64,000 nucleotides of DNA from Pseudomonas fulva (GTDB taxonomy: Bacteria; Pseudomonadota; Gammaproteobacteria; Pseudomonadales; Pseudomonadaceae), in NCBI RefSeq assembly GCF_023517795.1, contig NZ_CP082928.1, forward strand, positions 4,526,001 to 4,590,000. Reading direction: 5' to 3'. The notes beneath the pieces were generated by a model. The model saw only the letters and a list, made by a program, of their open reading frames with translations. It did no database searches and was not told the origin of the DNA. The position numbers and the translations under genes were made by a program. This document shows, piece by piece, positions 31,878 to 38,261 of the stretch. Each line of letters opens with the position of its first letter. Position 1 is the stretch's first letter.

Positions 31878-32278
31878 AGAAGACCCCGCTGCTCAACGCC
31901 GAACTGTCCGCCGCCATCGCTCGCCTGGGCCATGGCGACATCATCGTCATTGGCGACGCCGGCATGCCGGTACCTGCAGGTACACCCTGCATCGACCTGG
32001 CCCTGACCGCCGGTGTGCCGGACTTCGTCACCACCCTCAAGGTGGTGCTCAGCGAGATGCAGGTGCAGGGCCATCTGCTGGCCCGGGAAACCCTGGAGGT
32101 AGCGCCACTGGCGCTCGAAGCCATCGAGAAACTGAGCGCAGAAGGCGAGCTGGGCGAGCGGCAACTGGTCAGCCACGACGAACTCAAGGCCGCCTGTGCC
32201 AAGGCTCGTGTGCAGATCCGCACCGGTGAGTGCCGGCCGTACAGCAATATTGCGCTGATTGCTGGAGTGACTTTCTAA
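31874..32278 (+). CDS. rbsD: D-ribose pyranase
   Basis: 134 residues, the normal RbsD length. It converts beta-pyranose and beta-furanose forms of ribose so that ribokinase gets its substrate. His20 in [20 protein letters not shown] matches the catalytic His. The C-terminus [19 protein letters not shown] is conserved. Its ATG overlaps the rbsK stop (ATGA). It is the last gene of the operon, and the hairpin at 32285-32303 follows. Confidence 0.95.
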
Positions 32279-32303: not shown

Positions 32304-32420
32304 GTGTCACTTGGCCGCTTCAAGGCAGTTGCAGCCGCTGAACGGGCAGCTACCGGCCAGAAGCGGACGGGCCTCTATAGCTTGGGGGATCTACGAAACC
32401 TGGGGCGAGACACAGGGCTG

Positions 32421-35400
32421 CTAGAAGCTCTCTTTTCTGAGGTTGGCTTCTATATCTTCATATTTCCCATGGCGCTCGTAGCTTTTAGCAATTCCCTCCA
32501 ACATTGTTGCAACATTGGGATGAGAGAATTGGACTCGCCTCGCTTGATCACGGAAGTATGTTGCCAACGTCCGTTCTTGATCCCCCCCATCCCAAGGTGA
32601 TCGGCTGGTAACACCCCGCTTATTCGATGTACCAATGCAGAATCCGCTCCTCATTTCCTCTAGTTCAGGACTATCAAGTAGCTCTCTTACGAGAGTAAAA
32701 GGCCAAGTACCGTCTTCATCTGTAGGGGCATGAGCAAGGATTTGTCCCAGTGTTTGATCGCACATGGTTGGTCGATCAGCATGGCTGCACAAATCACGCG
32801 TTTCTTTAATGAACTTTAAAAAAATATCCCCGTTAATACTTCCATCCGGCTGAGTTCCTGGTAGGCGCTTGCAAGAGTGCAGGATATTCCATGCTCGTTC
32901 TGCAGCCGCCTTAGATGCTTCAGTCGGCTCTTCTCTGTCTCCATGTTCTGGTTTGTACAGTAAACAAATTAACTCTTTGAAGAGTTCTGGCTCTGACATG
33001 ATTCCTTCGTACAAAGCATTGGCTTTGACCTCACCTCCGTATTGAAGAAACGGAAACAACCCAAACTCAAGATGTATTAGTGCCATCTTGTCAATTTCAC
33101 CGGAATCCTCCAGCCGTTCTAACATGTCCTCTAGGTGCCAAGACTCCAGTTTTAAGTCCTCCTCCAACTCTCCATGTAGTAGTTGCTGAAGAGCTGAAAA
33201 AAGCTGGGTAGGGGCAGTTTGTTCGAGGGAGTATTGGCAGTATTTAAGCGCGCTCAGTGGTCGTTTGGCCTCCAAGAGGCGCTCCAACACAAACTCCAGA
33301 TCCGTTTCGTTACCTCGGTGATAAAGGCGCACAGCCTGCCAGTAGGCTGCAGAAACCTCCGGGCCACATGCCTCGACTAGCTGCCAGGTTTCCTGATTTG
33401 GTATCGCCAAAGTCAAGAACCGGGCTAACTTTTCAGGCCGCCATCCGTCCTGTTTACTTAGTCCAATTACCGCTTGAAGAAGCTCACCCGAAGCCGGGGC
33501 AGGGAGTGTCTGAAGAAAGCCTGCAATACATAGCCCCATGGGCATGCCAGTAGAGAAATATTCGCCCTTCGTTGTAATCCACTCTGGCCAGAAAATATCG
33601 TCCCAGACAACCTGGGCCAATGTGGCCCCGACAGTGCTGGGATCAGCGCACACCTCAACTAGGTTCTCAATGCCTACCATGCGTTGAGCCTGATAAATCT
33701 CGGTTAATGCCGAAACTCGCCTTTGAGTTATGGCATTACCGCGCTCGCAAGGGTCGTCGTCACGATCGCGGCTAGGTAACTCCGGCCAATAGCTGTCGAA
33801 AAGCCAGCGATGGCGAGCGACCAAGCCCTGTGGGGCAAGTAGCTCGTAGCATTCTTCTGCGGGCGACAACCATTCATTCAACTCGTTAGCTGGTGCGTCG
33901 TCGTAGTTACGATGCCAATGAACAATCTGTCGAAGCGCAAGCCGTATAATTTCCCGATCTTCATCTCTCGCTGTTGGCAGGGTGAAGGGCTCAATCAGCG
34001 CCAGCACCCTGGGTAGCTCCTCTCTATCTCTAAGTGTGGTTTTTTGCAGCAAAGAGACGATTCGAGGAGCGTTGCCTTCACTCAGTTGAAGTAGCTTTCC
34101 TCTGGCGAAATCCAACATTTCATGCATTTCATCGTAAGTAACGCCACGGCCGGCCCCGGCATCGTCTTCACGCCACTTTGGTCGGTGGGCGGGGAAGGCC
34201 ATCTGTGGGCCGCCTGCAGCAATCTTTCTCAAAACCCGAAAAGCGGCTTCAGCATCCCTATCAATCAGTAAATTGAGCACTTTGATACGCTCCGGCAAGC
34301 TAGCCGCGGTTTGCGGCAGCCAGGAGCGAAAAAGACCGAACAAACTCCCGCTAGGCTTATTACCCCAGTTTCCTTTTATTGGGACATGGCTCAGCTGGGC
34401 CAGAATGAGGGCCACTGGGACCAAACGTCGCGGAGCCCAGCCGAGGGTTTCCAATGCCCAAAGCAAGCCGGAGTGCCAGCAGCGTCCGCCAAACCCAGAA
34501 TCACTAGTTTCGGTAATAAGTCTTGTCACTGGTCTATCGGGCATCCGCAAACTGTTCTGTGCGGCACGCAGAAACGCATCTGGGGCAGCTTCTGCAAGGG
34601 TGGGCAGATAGGAGGCTAACGAGAGCCAGCGTTGGCCATCGGCCTTATCAAGCAACTCATGAATCAACCCTGATACGTGCTCTTCTATGTGTAGTGCCTG
34701 GAGTCCCACTTGTTCTGAGCCGCGCACAGCTAGTTTCATGAGTGAGTCGCAAACTGACTCAAACAACAGTTCCGAGTAGGGATGAACCTTGCCGTGGACT
34801 TGTGCCATCCATCGTTCTTCTTCTGGTAACTCCAGCTGAGGATCGGGTGCCGAGAGCATTTCTCGCGCAATGGCAAAAAAACGATTCAGTTGGCTGCTAG
34901 TGATTCGACCACCACATTGGTCAAGCAATTCCAGCGGTGATTTTGCTTTCCATACTGAGCCAATATTCAGCAGCGGGGCATCATCAAGTCGGGCTAGTTG
35001 GCGTAAGTCGCACTCGATTTCTTCATAGGTGCGGGCGGCCAGCCGCTCGACTACTTGTCGATCTGCAGCATTGCCTGCATGCCATGCTCCAAGCAGGCAA
35101 AGCAGGGGCAGGCTGACCGACTGTGAGGTAACCAGCCAAGCGGGCTGCTGGATTGCCGGGTTTATGGCTCTTTGTCTACGAAGTACGGTCCAGGAGCGTC
35201 CGGTGCTTAGGGCATAACGTTTGGCATCGGATTCCTCCATGCCGATAGCGATGAGGGCTTTCTCGAACTCGTAGATGTTCGGTCTCTCCAAGACCAGTTC
35301 ATCACCCTCCGGCTTGCCGACTAAGTCGCCCGTGGCGTGGGGCACGATCACCCGCAAATTTTCGCGCAATATTGGATTAAGGGCTGTCTCAGTCCTTGCC

Positions 35401-36194
35401 GCGATGGCAATGCGCAGTTGCGTATTCGCTTCAACATAACGCCATCCCTGAGGTTCGGTCACTACAATGGCATGGTCTTGCGAGGCCATTAATACCGCCA
35501 CCGCAAAGGCTACGGCTTCTTCCACGCTGTCAGCACGTATCACCAGCGGAGGGATTGATCCCGACGAGGTATTTGTCTTCTGGATTTTTTCACCCAGAGC
35601 GTCAAACACTTGAGTGCGGTCCATAAATAGGGCTTGGGGAGTGATGGGCGGGCTGCATTGTCGTGCCCACGAATCCCAGTAACGGGATAGGCTTACAACA
35701 CCCCCACCACTCAATCCCAGCTCTTCGGCAAACTGCAAAGCCACTGCCGGGCTTTGCTCCAGCCACTGCTCCAGATCGTCTGCATCATAGGCCCGGACAC
35801 CCGCCCATTCGCCTTTGCTGCACTTTTCTGCTATCCAGTCGAGTTTTTTTGTCCAGCGTCGAGGAGTGACAAAGACAAATGTGCATGCCAAGCGTTCTGC
35901 TTCGCATATTTGATCAGTCCGTTTTTGGTAGTCGCTGTTAGCTTTGCCGAGCACATTTTGATCGCAACCGATTTCCCAACGGGATGCGCCTGACGGCACC
36001 CAGGCATTACCCCTCTCACTGAAAAGAGCACCGTCCCAGCCAGGTACATAGGTGGAATCACCTGCGGGGAATGAAAGTTGGCGGGTCGTTTCGGGCTCGA
36101 AGCAAAGCCGCCTGACCCAGCGCGGCAGATCAGTTTGCGCTTCCTTGGTCTGAGTACTTGCCCAGTTGACAATATGGGAGGCTGTAACTCGCAT
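32421..36194 (-). CDS. Large uncharacterised protein, nuclease-like N-terminus and STAND-like middle, defence candidate
   Basis: 1257 residues; I know no named family with certainty. Residues 51-151 hold GWDG (Asp54), WEIG (Glu74), Lys84, DYQKR, then the strand FVFVTPRRW and VRAYDADDLEQWLEQSPAV. This could be a PD-(D/E)xK-like fold, although the E-x-K is not canonical. Residues about 185-370 resemble a STAND/AAA module ending in YALSTGRSWTVLRRQ, but no Walker A was found. The remaining 880 residues look helical, as in TPR or HEAT sensor regions. GAGGTGA precedes the ATG at 36194. GC is lower than in its neighbours. It stands alone, convergent to rbsD, as recently acquired genes often do. Confidence 0.7.
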   Translation of the reverse strand: MRVTASHIVNWASTQTKEAQTDLPRWVRRLCFEPETTRQLSFPAGDSTYVPGWDGALFSERGNAWVPSGASRWEIGCDQNVLGKANSDYQKRTDQICEAERLACTFVFVTPRRWTKKLDWIAEKCSKGEWAGVRAYDADDLEQWLEQSPAVALQFAEELGLSGGGVVSLSRYWDSWARQCSPPITPQALFMDRTQVFDALGEKIQKTNTSSGSIPPLVIRADSVEEAVAFAVAVLMASQDHAIVVTEPQGWRYVEANTQLRIAIAARTETALNPILRENLRVIVPHATGDLVGKPEGDELVLERPNIYEFEKALIAIGMEESDAKRYALSTGRSWTVLRRQRAINPAIQQPAWLVTSQSVSLPLLCLLGAWHAGNAADRQVVERLAARTYEEIECDLRQLARLDDAPLLNIGSVWKAKSPLELLDQCGGRITSSQLNRFFAIAREMLSAPDPQLELPEEERWMAQVHGKVHPYSELLFESVCDSLMKLAVRGSEQVGLQALHIEEHVSGLIHELLDKADGQRWLSLASYLPTLAEAAPDAFLRAAQNSLRMPDRPVTRLITETSDSGFGGRCWHSGLLWALETLGWAPRRLVPVALILAQLSHVPIKGNWGNKPSGSLFGLFRSWLPQTAASLPERIKVLNLLIDRDAEAAFRVLRKIAAGGPQMAFPAHRPKWREDDAGAGRGVTYDEMHEMLDFARGKLLQLSEGNAPRIVSLLQKTTLRDREELPRVLALIEPFTLPTARDEDREIIRLALRQIVHWHRNYDDAPANELNEWLSPAEECYELLAPQGLVARHRWLFDSYWPELPSRDRDDDPCERGNAITQRRVSALTEIYQAQRMVGIENLVEVCADPSTVGATLAQVVWDDIFWPEWITTKGEYFSTGMPMGLCIAGFLQTLPAPASGELLQAVIGLSKQDGWRPEKLARFLTLAIPNQETWQLVEACGPEVSAAYWQAVRLYHRGNETDLEFVLERLLEAKRPLSALKYCQYSLEQTAPTQLFSALQQLLHGELEEDLKLESWHLEDMLERLEDSGEIDKMALIHLEFGLFPFLQYGGEVKANALYEGIMSEPELFKELICLLYKPEHGDREEPTEASKAAAERAWNILHSCKRLPGTQPDGSINGDIFLKFIKETRDLCSHADRPTMCDQTLGQILAHAPTDEDGTWPFTLVRELLDSPELEEMRSGFCIGTSNKRGVTSRSPWDGGDQERTLATYFRDQARRVQFSHPNVATMLEGIAKSYERHGKYEDIEANLRKESF

Positions 36195-36621
36195 ACTTCA
36201 CCTCAGAAAAATGGAGCTCCGTCATCCCAACCGACTCATGATTGGGGAAAGGCTAATTGATGGCTTATTTATGGAATAAAAGCATTGTAAAAGCCAAGGC
36301 GTCGCCCGGAAACGCGACCCTCAATTACGGTAAGCCGGGATGGAGAGTTACGATGCGGATAGAGGTCTGATCATGGGGCCCGCGTTACAGCCTTGTACCG
36401 CTGATCGGCCCCGCGGAACAGCATTGTCTTGGACAGAGTTCGATGAATATATCTGGCTCCGCCGAAAGCGGAAGGTGAACGAAGCTTTTGTGGAGGAGGC
36501 CGGGTGGCGATCTGCTTTAGCCTCGATCTTTGCCTGGCTAGGCGCAAGAGCTTGGGCTAAAGCCCCTCCCACGATCGTGAACGGCCCGCTACCGCCACAT
36601 TGGCGGCTATCGACCTCTGCC
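36195..36621. other. Intergenic gap with REP-like remnant
   Basis: 427 bases upstream of the 1257-residue protein gene. The promoter-proximal part is AT-rich (GGCTTATTTATGGAATAAAA near 36262). The rest has no believable gene. A copy of the pseudomonad REP-type sequence GGGCTAAAGCCCCTCCCAC is at 36554-36572, and CCGCCA/TGGCGG forms a small hairpin at 36592-36606. Confidence 0.6.
36554..36572. repeat. REP-like repeat copy
   Basis: GGGCTAAAGCCCCTCCCAC is the reverse complement of a sequence found in many copies between Pseudomonas genes (GTGGGAGGGGCTTTAGCCC). The core GGGCTAAAGCCC is almost palindromic. Only one copy is seen in this window. It separates the acquired-looking gene from the HAD gene. 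Confidence 0.6.
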
Positions 36622-37275
36622 TCAACTCCAACTCAGGATCGGCCAACCCTCGCGCTCGGCATGTTCGCGCAGCACCGGGTCGGGGTTCACCGCGTGGGGT
36701 TTGTCGACCCGCTGCAGCAGCGGCAGGTCGTTGCGCGAGTCGGAGTAGAAGTAGGCGCCGTCCAGGCTTTCGCCTTGTTCTTCCAGCCAGGCATGCAGGC
36801 GGGTGACCTTGCCTTCGCGGTAGGTCAGCACGCCCTCGGTCTTACCGCTGTAATGGCCGTATTCCTCGTGCAGGTCGATGGCCAGCACCTCATCGACTTT
36901 CAGGCGTTCGGCGATGGCGCTGACCAGAAAATGCGCCGAGGCGGAGATGATCAGGATGCGGTCGCCGGCCTCTCGGTGGGTGGCCAGGCAGCGGGTGGCG
37001 TCGCTGAAGAAGATCGGCTCGATCACGTCTTCCACGAACGGCTCGACCACGAAGGCGACTTCCTCCGGCGTGCGGCCCACCAGCGGCGACAGGCTGAAGG
37101 TCATGTAGTCCTCCATGGCCAGCTTGCCTTCGGCGTACGCCGCCATCAGCTGGTGATCCTTGGCGATAAAGCTCTCGCCGTCGACCCAGCCCAGTGTGGC
37201 CATGTGCTCGCTCCACAGGCTGGCGCAGTCGCCGTTGATCAGGGTTTCGTCGAGATCGAAAATTGCCAAAGCCAT
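36622..37275 (-). CDS. HAD-IB family phosphatase
   Basis: About 217 residues, similar in build to phosphoserine phosphatase. HAD motif I is FDLDETLINGD (nucleophile Asp8-type), motif II ISASAHFL, and the acidic motif IV YSDSRNDLPLL. The ATG at 37275 shares one base with the stop of the ABC ATPase gene, so the enzyme belongs to the transport operon. It may dephosphorylate a product of the imported compound. SerB is possible but the operon context argues for a specialised substrate. Confidence 0.85.
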   Translation of the reverse strand: MALAIFDLDETLINGDCASLWSEHMATLGWVDGESFIAKDHQLMAAYAEGKLAMEDYMTFSLSPLVGRTPEEVAFVVEPFVEDVIEPIFFSDATRCLATHREAGDRILIISASAHFLVSAIAERLKVDEVLAIDLHEEYGHYSGKTEGVLTYREGKVTRLHAWLEEQGESLDGAYFYSDSRNDLPLLQRVDKPHAVNPDPVLREHAEREGWPILSWS

Positions 37276-38261
37276 CAAGCTACCTCTTTTACGGCGCTAG
37301 CCGCGATATCCAGTGAGATGGGGTGGCCGTTGGCGTGCAGGTCGTCGGCGCTGCGGTTGAGCACGTCGACCAGCAGTTTCACGCCGCCGGCGTCCACCCG
37401 GTAGCGGATGATATTACCGAGCAGGGCGTGGCTGCGAATGATTGCGCTGATCGGGCCCTGGCCGAGCACGATGGCTTCCGGGCGAATCGCCACCTGGCTG
37501 CTCACCGGGCGGCCGAGCAGGCGGCTGGCGGTGGGCGCGTCGAGCAGGTTGTAGTTGCCGATGAAACCGGCGGCGAAGGCGTCGGCCGGCGCGGTGTAAA
37601 GGGTTTCCGCGTCGCCGCTCTGGACGATGCGCCCGGCGTTCATCAGAAAGATGCGGTCGCTCATCACCAGCGCTTCTTCCTGATCGTGGGTGACGAAAAT
37701 CGTCGTCAGGCCAAGCTCCTGCTGGATGCTGCGGATCTGCTCGCGCAGGTGCTTGCGGATGCGCGCATCGAGGGCCGACAGCGGCTCGTCGAGCAGCAGC
37801 AGGCGCGGGCGGGTGACCAGCGAGCGGGCAAGGGCTACGCGCTGGCACTGGCCGCCGGACAGCTGATGCGGGTAGCGCCCGGCGAAGTCGCCCAGCTCGA
37901 CCATCGCCAGGGCTTCCTGCACGCGGGCGGCGGATTCTTCCTTGCCGACCTTCTGCATGCGCAGGCCGAAGGCGACGTTCTGCGCGGCGGTCATGTTGGG
38001 GAACAGCGCGTAGCTCTGGAACACCATGCCGATGCCGCGCTTCTGTGGCGCGAGCGGCACCAGGTCTTCGCCGCCGAGCAGGATCCTGCCGCCGTTGACC
38101 TCGGTAAGGCCGGCGATGCAGCGCAGCAGGGTGGATTTGCCGCAGCCCGACGGGCCGAGCAGGGTGACGAATTCGCCTTGCTGAATCTCGGCGTTGATGT
38201 CGCTGAAGATCGCGGTGCCGCCGTAGCTTTTGTGCAGGTTCTGGATGCTCAGGAAACTCAT
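37275..38261 (-). CDS. ABC transporter ATP-binding protein (PhnT/PotA/FbpC-like)
   Basis: 328 residues. Walker A GPSGCGKST, signature LSGGQCQRVALARSL and Walker B LLLLDEPLSALDARI are intact. The C-terminal TOBE-like part has VAIRPEAIVLGQGP. The signature carries Cys in place of the usual second Gln (LSGGQCQ). The ATG at 38261 overlaps the permease stop by four bases. The set SBP-permease-permease-ATPase matches 2-aminoethylphosphonate (PhnSTUV) or iron-type transporters. Confidence 0.9.
   Translation of the reverse strand: MSFLSIQNLHKSYGGTAIFSDINAEIQQGEFVTLLGPSGCGKSTLLRCIAGLTEVNGGRILLGGEDLVPLAPQKRGIGMVFQSYALFPNMTAAQNVAFGLRMQKVGKEESAARVQEALAMVELGDFAGRYPHQLSGGQCQRVALARSLVTRPRLLLLDEPLSALDARIRKHLREQIRSIQQELGLTTIFVTHDQEEALVMSDRIFLMNAGRIVQSGDAETLYTAPADAFAAGFIGNYNLLDAPTASRLLGRPVSSQVAIRPEAIVLGQGPISAIIRSHALLGNIIRYRVDAGGVKLLVDVLNRSADDLHANGHPISLDIAASAVKEVA

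Follow-up and report, generated by a model that had tools for sequence, protein, structure and literature searches.

The window analysed here is a stretch of 64,000 nucleotides from Pseudomonas fulva (contig NZ_CP082928.1, positions 4,526,001 to 4,590,000), and the subject of this work is a single large gene within it, encoding a protein of 1257 amino acids (Table 1). An original prediction, made from the sequence alone, had placed such a protein at exactly these coordinates, and the gene proved to lie on the minus strand. The motifs picked out at that time (GWDG with D54, WEIG with E74, K84 with DYQKR, FVFVTPRRW and DADDLEQW) are all present. The gene is the only one between rbsD and a HAD-phosphatase-like gene (36622-37278), occurs once in its own genome and has a guanine-cytosine (GC) content of 52-55% in 1-kb steps, compared with mostly 60-69% in the rest of the window. 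The earlier description of a lone, low-GC gene at the end of a core operon was thus correct in its first two parts. However, the gene faces the ribose genes rbsBACRKD, which are on the plus strand and end at 32278 (neighbouring genes were named by eye), and the opposite strand rules out membership of the rbs operon. A core metabolic gene was also rejected, owing to a sporadic distribution and because no family match was obtained for the protein; a match to a known metabolic family was an outcome that had been named as telling against the original prediction.

The gene travels as a single-gene cassette. A sister genome (G001, locus L090) matches the window up to the cassette at 91% identity and resumes beyond it at 94% identity; it has both flanks, lacks the gene and holds approximately 2.4 kb of other DNA between them. 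The cassette is shared with a Stutzerimonas stutzeri contig (L004; 32370-36442, 91% DNA identity) and with a same-genus genome (L091; 32370-36362, 88% DNA identity), in both cases within an unrelated neighbourhood. Since the sister genome keeps the flanks without the gene, and L004 and L091 share the cassette in unrelated contexts, the transfer unit is one gene with approximately 50 bp behind it and up to approximately 250 bp in front. The genes flanking it in the window were absent from 6/6 homologue loci (L002-L006, L091) within the DNA compared, L002 and L003 being short on one side, and eight congeneric loci (L100-L107) have the rbs genes with no HAD gene within 12-13 kb. Homologues are sporadic, in mobile and unrelated contexts, and not in the core genome positions in all relatives that would have counted against the original prediction. 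Repeat and tRNA scans yielded no insertion signature, and a consensus scan of the upstream region found no sigma-70-like site. The left edge of the cassette falls within a short CCGCTTCTGGCC-type intergenic sequence (window:32345-32371), variants of which also stand at this edge of L004, L091 and the sister genome. Only three copies were found in the genome with one mismatch allowed, so repeat-driven insertion is not claimed. The sister genome carries a different cargo at the rbsD/HAD spot (L090:4995-7384; a DUF805-like membrane protein and MORN-repeat ORFs, by eye), marking it as a variable site.

Table 1. Features of the cassette and of the protein it encodes, in window coordinates (ORF, open reading frame).
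Feature	Position	Strand	Basis
1257-aa gene	32421..36194	minus	single ORF, ATG start; ORF list, full-length homologues, purifying selection
Single-gene mobile cassette	32367..36460	.	sister genome matches only to 32366 and from 36461; shared with L004, L091
Conserved upstream region, probable regulatory DNA	36195..36442	minus	aligned with L004 and L091
Residues 1-160, predicted PD-(D/E)xK-like nuclease domain	35715..36194	minus	model topology; invariant D54, E74, K84, D137; colinear with N-terminus of PD-lambda-4_A relatives
D54 codon, predicted catalytic Asp	36033..36035	minus	36/36 identical
E74 codon, predicted catalytic Glu	35973..35975	minus	36/36 identical
K84 codon, predicted catalytic Lys on following helix (81-95 in model)	35943..35945	minus	36/36 identical
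Residues 163-344, AAA+/STAND-fold module without Walker A	35163..35708	minus	
Residues 217-230, place of lost Walker A	35505..35546	minus	no GK in 36/36 rows
Residues 357-417, winged-helix-like segment (helices and beta hairpin)	34944..35126	minus	model secondary structure only
Residues 420-1257, long alpha-solenoid, proposed sensor	32424..34937	minus	

Conservation was assessed across 36 aligned sequences, including the window protein, three contig-truncated rows (L039, L048, L054) and some near copies (L005/L006/L019 at 98-99%, L029/L030 at 94%). Homologues that are partial or lack the nuclease part (L011, L012, L020, L021), have no such nuclease (L042-L046, L050, L052), repeat other loci (L053, L071-L073, L075, L076) or are partial (L055-L061) stand outside this set, as do the same-genus relatives L108-L121 and L016, a homologue broken into two pieces. 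D54, G55, G69, E74, K84, D137 and W144 are identical in all 36 sequences, and this invariance holds over relatives down to approximately 23-30% identity. In the predicted structure, the topology together with D54 and E74 fits the alpha-beta-beta-beta-alpha-beta core of PD-(D/E)xK enzymes, and residues 1-160 are a predicted nuclease domain of this type. The resemblance proposed originally is consistent with the model topology and with the invariant D54, E74, K84 and D137. The motif itself departs from the usual form: G76 occupies the place of the Lys of E-x-K, so that the family reads E-x-G, and the invariant Lys sits on the helix that follows. Sequence searches of the PDB gave weak unrelated matches or none, and a viral library gave no match at an expectation value (E) of 0.001, the only nuclease-named row being at rank 44 (E 0.11).

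The middle module was expected to resemble STAND/AAA proteins without a Walker A motif, and this was confirmed: Foldseek matches of the predicted structure are AAA+ chains, and no Walker A is found anywhere in the window protein. Over the 36 rows the corresponding place mostly reads A-[DE]-S-x-[ED]-E-A-x-A-F. Nor is a Walker B apparent, as the end of the third strand has no shared acidic pair, only scattered Asp/Glu (by eye, 36 rows). A Walker-A-like string arises by chance in two relatives, at residues 76 (L047) and 64 (L049), but it falls within the nuclease region and outside the Walker A place. The long helical C-terminus appears in the predicted model as an alpha-solenoid following the core, with generic fold matches; the further suggestion that it senses a ligand is retained as a proposal.

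Matches were found in 21/398 same-genus genomes, own genome counted: 16 strong (E <= 1e-140) and 5 weak (approximately 1e-7 to 1e-9). One of the strong matches falls into two frames, and another two are confined to the C-terminal body. A single-protein search of 57 genomes returned the own genome only, and an alignment search of phylum genomes matched 13/398 (own counted). Relatives are carried by 23 plasmid records, in 18 of which 80% or more of the query is matched at a single place, and identity stays under 60% throughout; ten of the plasmid matches (H6-H10, H12, H13, H15, H19, H22) and the loci L092-L097 are not among the loci compared in detail. IMG/VR contigs gave 19, 24 and 6 loci in three scans of overlapping sets, a single phage record gave a partial match (21.9%), and E. 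coli had no DNA-level match. The ratio of non-synonymous to synonymous substitution (dN/dS) of the gene is 0.159 against L004 and 0.147 against L023 (L023 = locus L091), the two nearest homologues. Together with the invariant residues, these ratios set the motifs apart from chance. DUF4238-annotated genes were also seen near three plasmid relatives (L009:11882-13123, L017:16387-17274, L021:5581-6387).

A closer inspection of the family revealed that its N-terminus is exchanged. An extra N-terminal helix-turn-helix (HTH) was recognised by sequence in 17/36 members; when six such rows were compared with Pfam, five scored above the cut-off (L007, L008, L010, L013, L038) and L017 did not. L042-L046 and L052 match the family only from approximately residue 336-353 onward (L042 body against family profile, E 3e-121). 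A different N-terminus, starting NPFSTGGGG, was read in L042 (7203-10742), L043, L044 and L046, and this module, a candidate effector, has no Pfam match above cut-off. Another body of the NPFSTGGGG type is apparently split (L135:5598-9168). In L011, L050 and L136 the body lacks the nuclease and follows a small HetE-N protein (106-115 aa; PF20701, E 1.5e-40, 5.6e-33 and 8e-27). Each of these small proteins carries QNHSG-x-GDN in its tail, a motif similar to the Q-x-H-x-G-x-GHN in the head of its receptor. We take the QNHSG-x-GDN-type motif to resemble the bacterial amyloid signalling motif BASS3. In PMC8086366, BASS3 is called RHIM-like, and such motifs are described in neighbouring gene pairs. 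The three pairs (L136:6683-9922, L050:7555-10688, L011:7570-10664) may be amyloid-coupled immune pairs.

The genes around homologues were also compared, as the original prediction had advised. ORFs were listed for 13 loci, and selected ORFs of eight were scanned with PADLOC (E 0.001 or 1e-5), leaving L002, L128, L131, L135 and L136 outside the scan. A PADLOC defence neighbour was found at four of the eight. L004 has a DRT UG5-nitrilase reverse transcriptase (E 0) and an Abi_C protein (Pfam), L091 a CAP12-TIR effector and a DUF927 protein (Pfam), and L134 AbiEii (E 7.2e-91), AbiEi (E 1.2e-58) and a partial RT-associated NERD match (E 1.2e-13), while in L130 a DSR1 gene adjoins the relative (E 0). 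In the stretch with DUF927 and CAP12-TIR, an 864-aa protein without Pfam or PADLOC match at E 0.001 adjoins the homologue on the same strand (L091:5534-8125).

The family has a distant link to PD-lambda-4_A. The PADLOC PD-Lambda-4_A model PDLC03991 matches 9/22 family members (best E 9.8e-8). A search of class genomes with that model matched 8/274, of which L062, L063 and L068 were taken as relatives. Profile-profile comparison of the family with these three gave E 2.9e-16 and 1.5e-16 over approximately 960 columns, nearly end to end, with the C-terminus at 7.8e-13 and the nuclease at 6.5e-5. By comparison, a reversed profile gave 0.28, five column shuffles 0.05-0.76, and unrelated proteins 0.35 (DSR1), 0.11 (AAA_16 protein), 0.045 (864-aa neighbour) and 0.57 (reverse transcriptase). 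With the E-values of the parts set against these controls, homology in sequence is firm over the full length and at the C-terminus, and moderate for the nuclease part; for the middle module alone the signal is no better than in controls.

It is probable that the gene encodes a single-gene mobile anti-phage immune protein with an NLR-like build, in which a predicted nuclease is followed by a STAND/AAA+ module devoid of nucleotide-binding motifs, a winged-helix-like segment and an alpha-solenoid. The computed basis is the architecture, the invariant catalytic candidates, the loss of Walker A, the distant PD-lambda-4_A homology, the mobile and partly defence-rich contexts and the N-terminal exchange; overall, the original prediction is supported. 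In the proposed mechanism the alpha-solenoid would sense a phage product, and binding would rearrange or assemble the protein without an ATP switch, the AAA+ module acting as a structural joint or assembly platform with no nucleotide switching. The nuclease, once released or assembled, would cut phage and/or host DNA, and infection would stop, probably by abortive infection. Where present, the extra HTH probably either acts as a repressor at the promoter of its own gene or tethers the protein to DNA.

Several observations weigh against this explanation. The PADLOC comparison suggested in the original prediction gave no match for the window protein with any of 5027 models. With another alignment the N-terminal part reached only E 0.0018 against PD-lambda-4_A (probability 14.7%), and the middle module alone gave E 0.055, the best control being 0.045. 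For residues 1-375, Foldseek and VIA returned no solved nuclease among the matches listed; AAA+ chains fill these lists, and the nuclease fold was therefore barely tested there. The other four of the eight loci scanned (L005, L129, L132, L133) have no PADLOC neighbour at E 0.001 or 1e-5. Moreover, the scanned ORFs were chosen by eye, partly on recognition, with no random-locus control and with the window's own neighbours outside the scan, and hence the four of eight are support and not an unbiased rate. Finally, no phage assay of the family and no named description of it were found in the literature searched, which excludes most subscription papers.

A protein of this kind could instead be directed at plasmids entering the cell or at other mobile DNA, or exclude rival elements, by cutting invading DNA directly. 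The predicted nuclease effector would suit this role, 12 of the 23 plasmid records with relatives are predicted conjugative, and a Pseudomonas relative (L132) lies beside conjugation-type genes (by eye). However, relatives also occur in phage-like contigs and beside DSR1, DRT and AbiE genes, and the name of the related PD-lambda-4 refers, by the naming rule in PMC9519451, to phage lambda as the selecting phage; we therefore regard this as unlikely. The N-terminal HTH in 17/36 sequences, with one relative annotated as a HigA family antitoxin and others as HTH regulators, might point to a DNA-binding regulator or addiction module, that is, an antitoxin-like repressor or a plasmid-stabilising toxin. 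Yet the HTH is missing from the window protein and from its close relatives (L002-L006, L019, L023), the shared cassette has no partner gene, and an antitoxin would be expected to have neither invariant nuclease-like residues nor a long solenoid, making such a role very improbable. That the cassette is a decaying or neutral insertion without function, as its low GC and patchy distribution might suggest, is scarcely credible given a dN/dS of 0.15-0.16 for the two closest homologues and residues that stay unchanged down to approximately 23-30% identity; a neutral or broken gene was rejected on dN/dS.

A further alternative concerns the switch and is compatible with a defence role. The AAA+ module may still bind nucleotide through non-canonical residues, in which case it would be a normal STAND switch whose motif has eroded. 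Retention of the AAA+ fold and a fairly conserved motif at the Walker A place speak for this, but GK is absent there in every row and the rows have no acidic pair in common where the third strand ends (by eye), which renders it improbable. Returning to the immune-protein reading, we tentatively raise the possibility of a widespread NLR-like receptor family that lacks nucleotide switching (a pseudo-nucleotide-binding domain) and responds by ligand-driven rearrangement alone. One conserved sensor body might then serve different killers: a nuclease in the same chain with or without HTH, the other N-terminal module, or a separate HetE-N protein brought in through matching amyloid-type motifs.

STAND/NLR receptors are generally thought to require a nucleotide switch. 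A natural family in which the AAA+ fold is kept, Walker A is gone from all aligned members and purifying selection persists would allow the role of the switch to be probed directly. Moreover, one shared sensor body links the curated PD-lambda-4_A, the unnamed phage family phrog_18693 and the HetE-N partners, a link that current defence models overlook, as the PADLOC result for the window protein illustrates.

Among known systems, PD-lambda-4_A (PDLC03991/PDLC03990) is alike in length and in its order of nuclease-like N-terminus, AAA+/STAND module and helical C-terminus (by eye). However, the PD-lambda-4_A relatives L062, L063 and L068 keep a Walker A which the window family lacks, and L062 and L063 have Q-V-K where the family has E-x-G and the invariant Lys on the next helix. 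Judged by its lack of Walker A, the window family is a distant sister of PD-lambda-4_A and not PD-lambda-4_A itself. The ending _A in the model name implies a second component of that system; the shared cassette holds a single gene, no search aimed at a B component having been made. PMC9519451 describes a set of systems uncovered in E. coli by phage selection, to which PD-lambda-4 belongs, and a review table assigns it a P-loop NTPase (PMC10952713). Both families include HTH fusions, since the PD-lambda-4_A-like protein at L068:544-4623 has its own N-terminal HTH_37 with an intact Walker A. The window protein also fits phrog_18693, a phage protein family of unknown function, over residues 3-1252 of 1257 (E 1.3e-138). 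DSR1, a SIR2 defence protein, is likewise a single large protein with an N-terminal effector and no AAA+ switch; it has SIR2 instead of a nuclease and no profile similarity to the window family (E 0.35). HetE-N proteins and amyloid-signalling NLR pairs (PF20701; BASS motifs) have a counterpart in the three body-only relatives behind a small HetE-N gene; the window protein lacks a motif of that type, and its predicted nuclease is part of its own chain. STAND/NLR-type defence proteins, AVAST among them, likewise combine an effector, a core of AAA+ fold and a repeat sensor in a single polypeptide and have exchangeable N-terminal effectors, a likeness of general build, with AVAST itself covered by the library scans. 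They differ in that the window family has no Walker A. Taken together, the window family is built like an NLR but without the defining nucleotide motifs.

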